Source: Candidatus Brocadia sapporoensis
Lineage (GTDB): Bacteria > Planctomycetota > Brocadiia > Brocadiales > Brocadiaceae
Assembly (NCBI RefSeq): GCF_001753675.2
Contig: NZ_MJUW02000019.1
Coordinates: 1-36,655, forward strand
Length of the DNA: 36,655 bases
Direction: 5' to 3'
Shown here: positions 6,420-36,132 of the stretch, one piece after another
Numbering within the stretch: position 1 is the stretch's first letter
Layout of the letters: each line of letters begins with the position of its first letter
Program-made: the position numbers and the translations under genes
The notes under the pieces: model-generated
Databases searched by the model: none
Seen by the model: only the letters and a program-made list of their open reading frames with translations
What the model was told of the DNA's origin: nothing

Positions 6420-8108
6420 TTACAGACGTCCGGACCTCAAGACCCCAATGGCAAGCCCCAAACCGAGAAAGCCTGCAAAGACAAATCCCACAATGCCCAG
6501 TACCGGGAAGCCATTTATAAGGGGGCCTCGGTTGGTCATAACAATAAGGGAAGACCCGATGATCAGGGCGGAGATGACCAGGCTAAAGGAAATCCGATTA
6601 CTGGATTTGTCCATTTCAGAGATAAATTTTGAGAGTCCCTGATGCTCAAATTCAATTTTGAGCTTACCCCGTTTTATCTTTTTTACTATTTCGTAGGTAT
6701 CTCTCGGAAGTATTCTCAGGATGTCCAGGAGTTCCGATGAATATGATGTTATCTCCTTGATAATGTGCTTCATATCGTATCTATCGTGTACCAGCTTTTC
6801 CACAAAAGGTCTGGTGTGAGCTATGGTATTAAACTCAGGGTCTAGCTGCCTGGCAACGCCGTCTATGGTAGCGAGCGCCTTGTTTAAGATGTGGAATTGC
6901 GGGGATATCTTTAATTTGTGTCTCGTCATGAGATCAATGGTTTGCGGAAGTATAAGAGACAGCTCAATCTGCTTCAGGGGAATATCATAGTATCTTTCCA
7001 AAAAATCCGCTATATCATTCTTGAAATCATGCAGGGTATCCTCCTCAACAAAGGCGCCCAGTCTTTCCAAGGCCTTCAGGATGCCGTTGATGTTTTTCAT
7101 GGATACAGCGATCAGGAGGCTTACAATGACGTCCTTCGTGTCTTCATCGAGCCTGCCTACCATTCCAAAGTCTATGAAAGCGACGACATTATTCGGCAGG
7201 ATGAAGATGTTTCCCGGATGTGGGTCTGCATGGAAGAATCCGTCAATAAATATTTGCTGCAGGACGGCATTGGCACCATTTGCAGCGACAGCCTTTTTTT
7301 CTTCAGCGGTGTGTATCTGATTTAAGTAATCGTTCAGCCGGATACCCTTGATTTCCTCTGTGGTAATAACCCTTGATCTGGTACAGTCCCAAAAGACGGC
7401 GGGAATATGAACCATCGCTGAATCCTTAAAGTTCTTGCGGAATCGATCGATATTATGCGCCTCGCAGGTAAAATCAATCTCCTTTGTGATAACCTTGGAA
7501 AATTCGTCAACGATACCGATAGGATTAAAAAGCCTGACCTCCTGCATATACCGGTTCGCCAGTTGGGCCAGGGTGTAAAGGATGTCAATATCCGTTTCGA
7601 TCGTTTTGCGGATATCGGGACGTTGCACCTTTACGACGACACTCTCACCCGTCTTGAGCTTCGCCCGATGCACCTGCCCGAGAGAGGCTGCAGCCAGGGG
7701 TTCCGGATCAAAGGAAGCGAATAATTCTTCCGGATATTTCCCAAAGGATTCCCTGATCTGCTTTCGCACACATTCATAACCAAAGGGGGGAACATGGTCC
7801 TGGAGCTTGCTCAGTTCATTGCAGAGATCTAAAGGAATCAAGTCCGGCCGAATGCTGAGAATCTGTCCAAATTTTATAAAGGTGGGACCGAGTTCCTCCA
7901 GCGCTTTTCTGAGCCGGACGGCGCGAGACTCCCGAGGTTCGATAAAACGGCGCACTATCCGCATTTTGATAATACCCCTTCCAATAATATGATCTTCCAA
8001 ACGAAGCTGCTGAATGGCAAATCCAAACCCGTGCTTGGTCAATATTCTGAGAATCTGATTGAAACGGCGTATATCCCTGATTTTTTGTCTTATTTTTCTG
8101 AATTGCAT
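6420..8108 (-). CDS. ubiB: UbiB/AarF/ABC1-family atypical kinase
   Basis: A membrane-associated kinase-like ATPase linked in other bacteria to quinone (ubiquinone) synthesis or lipid handling. 562 residues. An N-terminal KxGQ-type motif (FIKFGQILSIRPDL) is followed by LGQVHRAKLKTGE with VVVKVQRP, the catalytic loop HADPHPGN at 293-300, and FIDFGMVGR as the metal-binding motif. Two hydrophobic helices end the protein (SLVISALIIGSSLIV, then GIVGFVFAGFLGLGL). It lies 27 bp downstream of the phasin-like gene and is probably co-transcribed with it. No ubi genes are nearby. The symbol marks the family; the exact role in this organism, where menaquinone may be the quinone, is not shown. Confidence 0.88.
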   Translation of the reverse strand: MQFRKIRQKIRDIRRFNQILRILTKHGFGFAIQQLRLEDHIIGRGIIKMRIVRRFIEPRESRAVRLRKALEELGPTFIKFGQILSIRPDLIPLDLCNELSKLQDHVPPFGYECVRKQIRESFGKYPEELFASFDPEPLAAASLGQVHRAKLKTGESVVVKVQRPDIRKTIETDIDILYTLAQLANRYMQEVRLFNPIGIVDEFSKVITKEIDFTCEAHNIDRFRKNFKDSAMVHIPAVFWDCTRSRVITTEEIKGIRLNDYLNQIHTAEEKKAVAANGANAVLQQIFIDGFFHADPHPGNIFILPNNVVAFIDFGMVGRLDEDTKDVIVSLLIAVSMKNINGILKALERLGAFVEEDTLHDFKNDIADFLERYYDIPLKQIELSLILPQTIDLMTRHKLKISPQFHILNKALATIDGVARQLDPEFNTIAHTRPFVEKLVHDRYDMKHIIKEITSYSSELLDILRILPRDTYEIVKKIKRGKLKIEFEHQGLSKFISEMDKSSNRISFSLVISALIIGSSLIVMTNRGPLINGFPVLGIVGFVFAGFLGLGLAIGVLRSGRL

Positions 8109-26201: not shown

Positions 26202-26787
26202 GAACCGATAGCTTATCTCATGCTTTTTTGCCAATTAGACGAGTGCATTCTTCAAATGAAATTACGGGTGAGTTCAGAAGTTGTGAAGGCGTGTTGACAC
26301 ATTTGAGAATTACTGTGCAGAGCCGATCTGCCCTTGCATACATAAACGTAACAATTTTGTTTTCTGAAAATTTCCAATAAAAACTGGCTATTACATGCAG
26401 TGTAGGGGCAAAGCATTTGCTGTAATTGGCACAACACGTCCATGTCTATACGAGCAGATGCTTCGTCCCTGCTGAAATGTTGTCCTTTTGTAAATTTTCC
26501 TCCATACCCTTCGTGGTTCGTGATGACAAAAAGAGAGACGGGATAAATTGTCTTGAAAGCCTTGAAAATACTGATAAAATCAAGTTATATCTTCCGTTAC
26601 AGGGTGGCATGGACAAACTTGTTTGTCCATGTGGTTTGAATATACGCACGGATTTGGAATCTATCACAAAGAAAGATTTTACACGGTAAGACTATAAAAA
26701 ACCCCTGAATATTCATAAAAACCCATTAACGTGCAAAAGTATTTTTTTTCCAGAGTTTGATTGAATAAGCCCCGAGGTTATTTTCCC
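26202..26787. other. Intergenic stretch between hydrolase gene and mutS
   Basis: Apart from palindromic repeat copy 3 I see no gene. Short open frames here lack ribosome binding sites and natural composition. A strong terminator after the hydrolase gene is not evident. Confidence 0.5.
26582..26666. repeat. Palindromic interspersed repeat, copy 3
   Basis: CATGGACAAAC (26608-26618), TT, GTTTGTCCATG (26621-26631) inside GTTACAGGGTGG...TTTGAATATACGCACGG followed by ATTTGGAAT. The right flank matches copy 2 almost exactly. Confidence 0.88.
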
Positions 26788-32858: not shown

Positions 32859-34355
32859 ATGCGGAAGAAACAGATGGGGGTTATGATATGTGCCATATTT
32901 TTTAGTCTTGCTGTCATGATATCCCAAGCCAGCGCTTGGAATATTCTCACGCTTGACGAAACGGGCGATGTGGGTCAGTTTGGGGCCATAACAACAGGAA
33001 CGTCCGGCGCCTCTTATATCAGTTATTATGACAACACAAACGAAGACCTCAAATACGCTACAAACATCTCCGGTACTTGGACGACCCAAACCCTGGATAA
33101 CACCGGTAATGTCGGGCGGTTTACCTCTATAGATGTGGGTACATCGGGGGCATTGTATATCAGTTACTACGATGTTACCAGTGAAGACCTCAAATATGCA
33201 ACAAATGTCTCCGGTACCTGGACATACGCTATTGTAAACAGTAATAACCAAGTCGGCAGGTTTTCCGGAATAAAGGTAGGGACGAGCGGCGCTGCCTATA
33301 TCAGTTTTTATTACGATACCGCCTTCGACCTTAGATACGCCACGAACGTCTCCGGTTTATGGGTGGTTACTACTAACGTGGATACAGCCGGCTCGGTAGG
33401 CCAGTATACCTCTATAGTTGTGGGTACATCGGGCGCATCGTATATCAGTTATTATGACGACACCAATACCGACCTCAAGTATGCCACAGACGCCACCGGT
33501 ACTTGGACAACTGAGACATTAGACAGTACTGGAAAAGTAGGCCAGTATACCTCCATAGCTATGGGTACGTCGGGCGCATTGTATATTAGTTATTACGACG
33601 AGACAAATGGAAATCTAAAACTCGCTACAAACATCGCTGGTACTTGGACAACTGGAACGGTGGACAGCACCGGCAATGTAGGCCAGTATACCTCCATCGC
33701 TGTGGGCACATCGGGCGCATTGTATATCAGTTATTATGATTTTGACAACAAAGACCTCAGGTATGCCACAAACGCCTCCGGTACCTGGACGACCGAGACA
33801 GTGGATAGTGACGACGATGTTGGACAGTTTAGCTCCATTTCTGTTGGATTGTCGGGAGATGTGAATATCAGTTATTACGATGATACCAATAAAAATCTCA
33901 AATACGCATTTAAATCCGAGACCGGTGTACCACCAACACCAACGCCAACTGCTACACCAACGCCAGGCACACCGACGCCAACACCAACGTCGACTGCTAC
34001 ACCAACGCCAGGCACGCCGACACCAACGCCATCGCCAACTCCGGTGCCTTGTAATGCGAAAAAACTTAACGTAAAACCAAAATCTCTGAAGCTTTCGCAG
34101 GGAGAAGACACAGAAAAAACCGTAATCTTAACCTGCAAAGATGGTTTCCCGTCGGTAAATCAACCAGTGAAGGCTAAGATCGTGAGTGGTAAAAAATTCG
34201 TGACTGTTTCACCGGCAGAGGCTTACACTGACGAAGATGGTCAGGCAACGTTTACCATTACTGCTACAGAAAAGAAGGGCACTGCAGTAGTACGATTCAA
34301 ACATAAAAATCTGGTAGGCGACGTAACGGTAAAGGTAAAAAAAGCAACAGAATAA
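32859..34355 (+). CDS. Secreted seven-repeat (probable beta-propeller) protein with Ig-like C-terminus
   Basis: 498 residues from ATG 32859, which has AAAGGAG upstream. The signal peptide ends in SQASA before WNILTL. Seven repeats of about 47 residues follow, each with VGQYTSI.VGTSGA.YISYYD and DLKYATN.SGTW; seven such units suggest a seven-bladed propeller. A Thr-Pro linker (PTPTPTATPTPGTPTP-type) leads to a C-terminal Ig-like/BIG-type domain with KKLNVKPKSLKLSQGE, TVILTCKDGFPS and GTAVVRFKHKNL. Likely an exported binding or adhesive surface protein; the ligand is unknown. Its paralogue follows directly, and a strong terminator lies after the stop. Confidence 0.8.
   Translation: MRKKQMGVMICAIFFSLAVMISQASAWNILTLDETGDVGQFGAITTGTSGASYISYYDNTNEDLKYATNISGTWTTQTLDNTGNVGRFTSIDVGTSGALYISYYDVTSEDLKYATNVSGTWTYAIVNSNNQVGRFSGIKVGTSGAAYISFYYDTAFDLRYATNVSGLWVVTTNVDTAGSVGQYTSIVVGTSGASYISYYDDTNTDLKYATDATGTWTTETLDSTGKVGQYTSIAMGTSGALYISYYDETNGNLKLATNIAGTWTTGTVDSTGNVGQYTSIAVGTSGALYISYYDFDNKDLRYATNASGTWTTETVDSDDDVGQFSSISVGLSGDVNISYYDDTNKNLKYAFKSETGVPPTPTPTATPTPGTPTPTPTSTATPTPGTPTPTPSPTPVPCNAKKLNVKPKSLKLSQGEDTEKTVILTCKDGFPSVNQPVKAKIVSGKKFVTVSPAEAYTDEDGQATFTITATEKKGTAVVRFKHKNLVGDVTVKVKKATE
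33948..34037 (+). repeat. 45-bp tandem repeat encoding the Thr-Pro linker
   Basis: Two 45-bp units (ACTGCTACACCAACGCCAGG at 33948 and again at 33993) encode a 15-residue TATPTPGTPTPTPTS-type block. In-frame slippage here would lengthen or shorten the linker. The paralogue at 34651 has only a short PPPPP instead. Confidence 0.8.
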
Positions 34356-34457: not shown

Positions 34458-34650
34458 AATTTATTAAAGATACCTTTATTGCTGTCTCAATGTGCTGATC
34501 TGTTCTTGCATACATCTCAAATTCATCGATAGTTTGGACAAGTTCTCGCCGTTTTTTAAAATTGGGCGACCATGGATGCGATATGAATTAATAAATATTT
34601 GAACGGAAGCATCAGTTACATTATTGTATTCTAAAATGGAGAATAAACAT

Positions 34651-36132
34651 ATGCAAAAGAAGCGGCTAGGAGTCGCAGTATTACGGCGCAAAAACCTTCT
34701 TTTTTCACATCTCCCTTCGACCCCATCGACCGGGGAGATTGGGATACGGTTTTGCTGCGCTATGATATGTGCGATATTTTTTAGTCTCATTGTTATGATA
34801 TCCCAAGCCGGTGCGTGGGATATTCTCACCCTTGACAGCAATGGTGATCCGGGTGAGTTTGCGGCCATAACAACGGGAACATCCGGTGCTTCCTATATCA
34901 GTCATTATGACGACGCATATGGTACCCTTAAGTACACCACAAACGTTTCCGGCACATGGACGACCATCACATTGGATAGTAACGGAAATGTAGGCAGATA
35001 CACCTCTATAGATGTGGGTACATCGGGCGCATCGTATATCAGTTATTACGACTTTACCAATGAAGATCTCAAATACGCGACAAATGTCTCCGGTACCTGG
35101 AAATACACTTTGGTGAACAGCCACAACAAAGTCGGCAGGTTTTCCGGAATAAAGGTGGGGACAAGCGGTGCTGCCTACATCAGTTATTATTACGATACCG
35201 CAGGTGATCTCAGGTACGCTACGAACGTCTCCGGTTCATGGGAGATTACTACTGATGTAGACACAGCCGGTAATGTAGGCCAGTATGCCTCCATCGTTGT
35301 GGGTACATCGGGCGCATCGCATATCAGTTATTATGACGTTACCAATGGCAACCTCAAGTGTGCCACAAACGTCTCCGGTGCCTGGACAACCGAGACATTG
35401 GATAGTGACGGCGATGTAGGCCAGTATACCTCGATCGCCATGGGTACATCGGGTGCATTGTATATTAGCTACTATGATGTTACCCATGGCGATCTCAAGT
35501 ATGCCACAAACGTCTCCGGTACCTGGACAACCGAGACATTGGATAGTGACGGCGATGTAGGTCAGTATACCTCCATTGCTATGGGTACATCGGGTGCATC
35601 GTACATCAGTTATTATGATGTTACCCATGGCGACCTAAAGTGTGCTACGAATATCTCCGGTACCTGGACATTCGAAGCGGTGGACTCTGATAACAAAGTA
35701 GGCATTAATAGCTCCATTTCTGTTGGATTGTCAGGAGATGTGCATATCTGCTGTCACGATGATACCGACCACACCCTCAAATACGCATCCAATTTCGAAG
35801 CCTACGAAGCACCGCCCCCACCGCCTTGTAAAGTAAAAAAACTTAACGTAAAACCAAAATCTCTGAAGCTTTCGCAGGGAGAAGATGCGGGAAAAACCGT
35901 AACCTTAACCTGCAAAGATGGTTTCCCGTCGGTAAATCAACCAGTGAAGGCTAAGGTAATGAGTGGTAAAAAATGCGTGTCTGTTTCACCGGCAGAGGTT
36001 TCTACTAACGAAGATGGTCAGGCAACGTTTACCATTACTGCCACAAATAAGACGGGCACTGCGGTAGTACGATTCAAACATAAAAATCTGGTAGGCGATG
36101 TAACGGTAAAGGTAAAAAAAGTATCGGGCTAA
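34651..36132 (+). CDS. Paralogous secreted seven-repeat protein with interrupted signal peptide
   Basis: 493 residues from ATG 34651 (GGAG upstream). It again has seven repeats of about 47 residues (VGQYTSIAMGTSGA.YISYYD, DLKYATNVSGTW) and a C-terminal Ig-like domain almost identical at DNA level to that of the upstream gene, joined by a short APPPPPP-type linker instead of a Thr-Pro one. Its N-terminus matches the paralogue as MQKKRLGV, then 29 extra residues (34675-34761), then MICAIFFSLIVMISQAGAW. The hydrophobic core is intact, so translation could also start at ATG 34762 and still give a signal peptide. The last repeat is divergent (HICCHDD). Role as for the paralogue. Confidence 0.78.
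   Translation: MQKKRLGVAVLRRKNLLFSHLPSTPSTGEIGIRFCCAMICAIFFSLIVMISQAGAWDILTLDSNGDPGEFAAITTGTSGASYISHYDDAYGTLKYTTNVSGTWTTITLDSNGNVGRYTSIDVGTSGASYISYYDFTNEDLKYATNVSGTWKYTLVNSHNKVGRFSGIKVGTSGAAYISYYYDTAGDLRYATNVSGSWEITTDVDTAGNVGQYASIVVGTSGASHISYYDVTNGNLKCATNVSGAWTTETLDSDGDVGQYTSIAMGTSGALYISYYDVTHGDLKYATNVSGTWTTETLDSDGDVGQYTSIAMGTSGASYISYYDVTHGDLKCATNISGTWTFEAVDSDNKVGINSSISVGLSGDVHICCHDDTDHTLKYASNFEAYEAPPPPPCKVKKLNVKPKSLKLSQGEDAGKTVTLTCKDGFPSVNQPVKAKVMSGKKCVSVSPAEVSTNEDGQATFTITATNKTGTAVVRFKHKNLVGDVTVKVKKVSG
34675..34761 (+). repeat. 87-bp in-frame palindromic insertion in the signal-peptide coding region
   Basis: Compared with the paralogue at 32859, these 87 bp (29 codons) are inserted exactly between the codons for V and M of GV|MICAIFF, and the frame is preserved. 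The insert contains nested inverted repeats: GCGCAAAAACC (34686-34696) with GGTTTTGCTGCGC (34748-34760), and ATCTCCC (34709-34715) with GGGAGAT (34733-34739). The coded residues resemble neither copy of the protein. Confidence 0.75.

Follow-up and report, generated by a model that had tools for sequence, protein, structure and literature searches.

REP/BIME elements are mobilised by RAYT (Y1) transposases, and REPs measure 20-40 bp. Bacterial MITEs such as Correia/NEMIS, RUP and ERIC are non-autonomous, imperfect inverted repeats of ~100 bp, which are present in tens to hundreds of copies and are mostly intergenic (PMC2229807). Where MITEs are fused to ORFs in enterobacteria, as with Yersinia RU-2/YPAL, it is the repeat that makes up the beginning of a predicted new signal sequence (Delihas 2007, PMC2759123). 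The Rickettsia palindromic elements (RPEs; Ogata et al. 2000, as reviewed in PMC2229807 and PMC10969869) are short dispersed hairpin repeats, located between genes as well as in frame within unrelated conserved genes; they are tolerated by the proteins, are common to several species, and nearly half of the copies in R. conorii lie inside genes (PMC10969869). In-frame palindromic elements had been described as typical of Rickettsia (and Wolbachia), apart from a scattering of MITE fusions elsewhere, and can now be extended to a new phylum.

Here we analysed a window of 36,655 nt from Candidatus Brocadia sapporoensis (contig NZ_MJUW02000019.1), in which an 87-nt segment interrupts the signal peptide of one gene. 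This segment very probably represents a single copy of a dispersed palindromic element, which is specific to the lineage, non-autonomous and mostly a selfish passenger. Like the RPEs, it is a many-copy dispersed palindromic repeat that occurs intergenically and in frame in several unrelated conserved genes, is apparently tolerated by the proteins and is shared by several species. By this analogy the element would work as RPEs do, and the best description for it is that of a new family of protein-coding palindromic elements, restricted to one lineage. The initial annotation had pointed to the coding-region elements of Rickettsia; the occurrence of the family in frame in unrelated genes bears out this likeness. 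Because the element resides in another phylum and has a far lower in-gene share (3 of 99 copies, two of these three in signal peptides, versus nearly half in R. conorii), we do not file it among the RPEs, with which it was compared by description.

With Correia/NEMIS, RUP and ERIC the element has in common a length of ~100 bp, a presumably non-autonomous nature, a mostly intergenic location and a similar copy number, but it differs from them in its weak terminal inverted repeats and in having no detected target-site duplication or parent insertion sequence. It resembles REP/BIME elements in being a palindromic dispersed repeat in a genome with Y1 transposase genes, yet it is much longer than a REP and no full copies surround the Y1 genes. 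Unlike the repeat in the Yersinia RU-2/YPAL fusions, it splits an existing signal peptide, whose empty state can be seen in paralogues and sister-species homologues. The open-access literature searched yielded no earlier description from anammox bacteria, though one may exist elsewhere. Since a free-living planctomycete family has an element of its own, the in-frame habit is not tied to intracellular life or genome reduction.

The insert and its empty counterparts

The gene that carries the insert (34651..36132, + strand; hereafter gene 34651) encodes a putative secreted repeat protein of 493 aa, as judged from its ORF, a C-terminal match to NF052345 and its dN/dS. It shares 72% identity overall with a tandem paralogue of 498 aa (32859..34355, + strand), and the two align from the first codon onwards except for 29 codons that are present only in gene 34651. 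As the initial annotation had proposed, these codons form an 87-nt insert at 34675..34761 (+ strand; 34673-34759 is an equivalent placement), which keeps the frame and is located between the basic n-region and the hydrophobic core of the signal peptide. It is delimited by the paralogue comparison, by its fold and by a match to the family model R1 described below, and its conserved core, GTATTACGG...GCTGCG, spans 34678-34759 (+ strand). The N-terminus of gene 34651 reads MQKKRLGV, followed by the 29 residues AVLRRKNLLFSHLPSTPSTGEIGIRFCCA and by MICAIFFSLIVMISQAGAW; that of the paralogue reads MRKKQMGV, directly followed by MICAIFFSLAVMISQASAW, with MICAIFFSL as the continuation in both. At the nucleotide level, the empty site of the paralogue is GGGGGTTATGATATG, and an example of a predicted insert-encoded peptide is NLLFSHLPSTPSTGEIGIR. 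The open frame 3' of the insert is intact. The palindromic structure that had been claimed for the segment is also recovered: the RNA of 34665-34770 folds at -35.7 kcal/mol (z -3.2), with 1 of 200 shuffles equally good.

The insert is equally absent from a third paralogue, which lies on contig C120 shortly after the window ends (~37.3 kb; N-terminus MWKRQIGVMICAIFL / MWKRQIGVMICAIFLS) and from two sister-species homologues, with N-termini MRKRQIGILVCAMFL and MLKRQIGILVCAMFL (starting MRKRQIGILVCAMFLG and MLKRQIGILVCAMFLG). Such a comparison with insert-free relatives had been suggested from the outset, and it leaves one filled site against four homologues that are empty at the same point. We therefore see next to no room for the segment being an ancient part of the gene that was lost from the paralogues, even though there is no insert-bearing orthologue of the window gene to date it by. 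An ancient segment had been expected to show no other copies and to be carried by all orthologues; instead, by its sequence it is a member of a dispersed family with ~99 copies, and orthologues of the GDPD and RACo-like genes discussed below differ in carrying it. The third paralogue (L084, ~7290-7776, ~0.6 kb past the window end) is also without the whole repeat region, its signal peptide leading directly into a Pro-Thr linker and then the C-terminal domain. Immediately past the window end there is a stretch of 10 N.

Does the insert provide the gene with a second start? The initial annotation had suggested that the ATG directly after the element (34762..34764, + strand) gives rise to a second product with different targeting. 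Such an in-frame ATG is indeed present, the TTATG end of the element could in principle supply start codons, and in two other genes, one glyQ-like and one M50-like, likely starts overlap copies. However, ATG 34762 has no Shine-Dalgarno-like motif upstream, is already present in the element-free paralogues as an ordinary internal Met, and would yield a shorter product that begins in the hydrophobic core and has no basic residue, hence no basic n-region. ATG 34651, on the other hand, is still preceded by the Shine-Dalgarno-like motif GGAG (34638..34641, + strand), identical in sequence and spacing to that of the paralogue. We consider a second start with differently targeted products very unlikely.

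A further possibility is that gene 34651 is a decaying copy, in which export is disturbed and the ORF has stayed open simply because little time has passed since the insertion. The insertion is present in a single member of a redundant tandem family, where it extends the n-region to ~37 residues. Nevertheless, the element copy has diverged and lost ~11 nt of the consensus with the frame unbroken, and the other two coding insertions have stayed in frame through speciation. Furthermore, the dN/dS of ~0.26 between gene 34651 and its paralogue, a value that averages the time before and after the insertion, points to purifying selection on the pair, so that we consider decay improbable.

A dispersed, lineage-restricted family

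A BLASTN search with the insert against its own genome returned further weak copies with a strongly conserved right end, and a pattern made from this right end occurs at 43 sites in the genome versus none for a reversed-pattern control. From an alignment of 13 genomic copies, leaving out the window copy, we built a sequence-only model (R1), which scores the window insert (34675-34767) at 45.4 bits (E=2e-13); membership of the family is thereby independent of the window copy itself. At E<=0.001, R1 gives at least 108 matches in its own genome, or at least 99 distinct copies after merging, including in-frame copies within other coding genes. The genome search that the initial annotation had called for thus uncovered many more copies, and these counts, obtained from searches and from the stretches around copies, are lower bounds. 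Within the window, a degenerate left-end fragment, TTATAGTCTTACCGTGTAAAATCTTTCTTT, lies upstream of a mutS-like gene (26666..26697, - strand; R1 17.2 bits, E=1.2e-4).

The consensus of ~95 nt has the form TTATAGTATTACCGTGTAAAATC...CCCC-loop-GGGG...GGTTGCGGCTTTGCTGCGTTATGA, or more fully TTATAGTATTACCGTGTAAAATCTTTCTTTTTTGCAAGTTTTTTACA-CCCC-loop-GGGGATTTGGTTGCGGCTTTGCTGCGTTATGA, and folds into three hairpins (z -3.7). When the 13 copies are folded jointly with RNAalifold, support is confined to the central and right hairpins; the long palindrome belongs to the window copy and does not extend to the family as a whole. The consensus is open in one antisense frame and nearly open in one sense frame, and the two sense frames are open in 17-18 of 42 copies compared with 8-10 in shuffles, a modest excess. 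Some copies reach ~170 nt, and some have an extended centre in which a second repeat is nested. This second dispersed repeat, CTTGACTTCGTCGTGATGGTTCGACAGGCTCACCATGCACGGCGCAACATCCTGAG...GATCAGTCGAACGATAG, was seen in the loop of copies L056, L057, L066 and L072, which suggests that the element itself serves as a landing site. The half-matches to R1 were considered as traces of a longer parent element, which was rejected: they are longer-centre copies or decayed copies.

Could the hairpin instead be a regulatory RNA early in the mRNA, such as a translation attenuator, an RNase site or a known riboswitch? Both the window transcript and the consensus fold strongly, the central stem shows modest covariation, and many copies are found within a few hundred bases of gene starts. 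Against this, a search of Rfam with the element gave no match up to E=1, the window hairpin is located 3' of the start codon, and copies are found in either orientation and whatever the gene context, the one in the RACo-like gene being read from the opposite strand. We regard a regulatory function as unlikely, and return to the reading of the segment as a dispersed, mostly selfish element.

The distribution across genomes is that of a lineage-restricted family. At E<=0.001, each of 11 genomes of the genus has 43-126 R1 matches, and all 33 genomes of the family have at least one. In a sample of 199 genomes from the phylum, matches at E<=1e-6 were present in seven, all of the same family, and three genomes of another family in the same order gave no match at this threshold.

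Mobility of the element is suggested by its dispersal and by the empty sites, with no target-site duplication or cognate transposase found. Over 42 copies and 504 offsets there was no correlation between left and right flanks (best z 2.3). TTAT is present at both element ends and the empty paralogues have TTATGA at the insertion point, with which a fixed TTAT target would be compatible. The ends are only loosely complementary (TTATAGTATTACCG / TCATAACGCAGC; the terminal sequences are also given as TTATAGTATTACCG / GCTGCGTTATGA). No parent element was seen among the copies examined, and the search of the own genome tied no cognate transposase to the element. Five Y1 (RAYT) loci exist in this genome, none with full copies beside it; weak partial matches of 11-19 bits lie near two of the five.

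Within the own genome, 84 of the 99 copies are intergenic, 12 overlap a gene end and three are wholly inside genes, with genes called around the copies by a simple home-made hexamer coding score rather than a gene finder. Given a coding density of 81% in a related anammox genome (PMC5854607), genes are strongly under-represented among the insertion sites, a pattern to be anticipated where most insertions into genes are purged. The complete genome G004 has 38 of 47 copies in intergenic regions, and one copy there forms the start of a lipoprotein signal region. We also observed that the right-end TTATG overlaps the likely start codon of the glyQ-like gene (L269, G004:3010163-3010255) and of the M50-like gene (L184, G000 C15:5406-5469); by such overlaps, element copies may reshape gene starts.

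Coding copies and the proteins that carry them

The three in-gene copies are those in the window gene, in the signal peptide of a GDPD-HEAT protein and in a loop of a RACo-like corrinoid activase. The GDPD-HEAT signal peptide is split like that of the window gene, with the element read in the same frame; it is filled in G000, G003, G004 and G006, and empty (plain) in six other genomes. The RACo-like activase (Pfam RACo_C_ter, Raco_middle) reads the element from the opposite strand, and its inserts, always a multiple of three in length, amount to +117 nt in G000, +168 in both G005 and G010, +309 in G006, +189 in G003 and +48 (a remnant) in G004, with none in G007 and G008. The insertion site corresponds to a short linker between aligned blocks of the RACo structure 3zyy (residues 474-500). 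As the GDPD and RACo-like inserts are present in several species and absent from others, in-frame copies persist through speciation. The insert in G006 (L231) has grown to 103 codons with repeated Ser-rich units (LSSSN/LPSSSN), which suggests in-frame expansion after insertion.

The element was inserted in frame into one member of the tandem gene family, between n-region and h-region. We propose that it is a mostly selfish and non-autonomous passenger, and that insertions in genes would survive only where the frame is kept, no stops are introduced and the extra residues are tolerated at the site. A signal peptide would tolerate the insert since the added residues are cleaved off. In the frame used by both the window and GDPD signal peptides, the right end of the element encodes Arg/Gln and then a hydrophobic run (I-W-L-R-L-C-C-V-M in the consensus, I-G-I-R-F-C-C-A-M in the window copy). 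Judged by hydropathy and charge, the net charge before the core amounts to +6 in gene 34651 and +3 in the paralogue, with no change in the h-region. The n-region thus becomes longer and more positive, with a smooth passage into the h-region; export would be expected to continue and to yield the same mature protein. A bolder idea would be that the element is more than a tolerated passenger and that its right end (I-W-L-R-L-C-C-V-M) is a portable n/h-region module that repeatedly lengthens or remodels signal peptides in this bacterial family and alters the targeting of surface proteins, which we think quite improbable. If it were true, the change in targeting would concern cells with an additional internal compartment, provided that they are anammox bacteria. 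Across a dozen genomes, orthologues with and without the insert make it feasible to measure how proteins absorb 16-103 extra residues over speciation, both in an enzyme, the RACo-like activase, and in signal peptides.

Finally, the C-terminal 105-115 residues of both window proteins partially match NCBIfam NF052345 (Kustd1514 anammox S-layer glycoprotein), for gene 34651 with E=9.6e-18, which is under the full-length cut-off, and may constitute a surface-sorting or anchoring domain. From this match, an anammox planctomycete is the probable host. This domain of ~105-115 aa (33950-34352 and 35815-36129 in the window) recurs in other proteins of G000, on contigs C113, C10 and C2.
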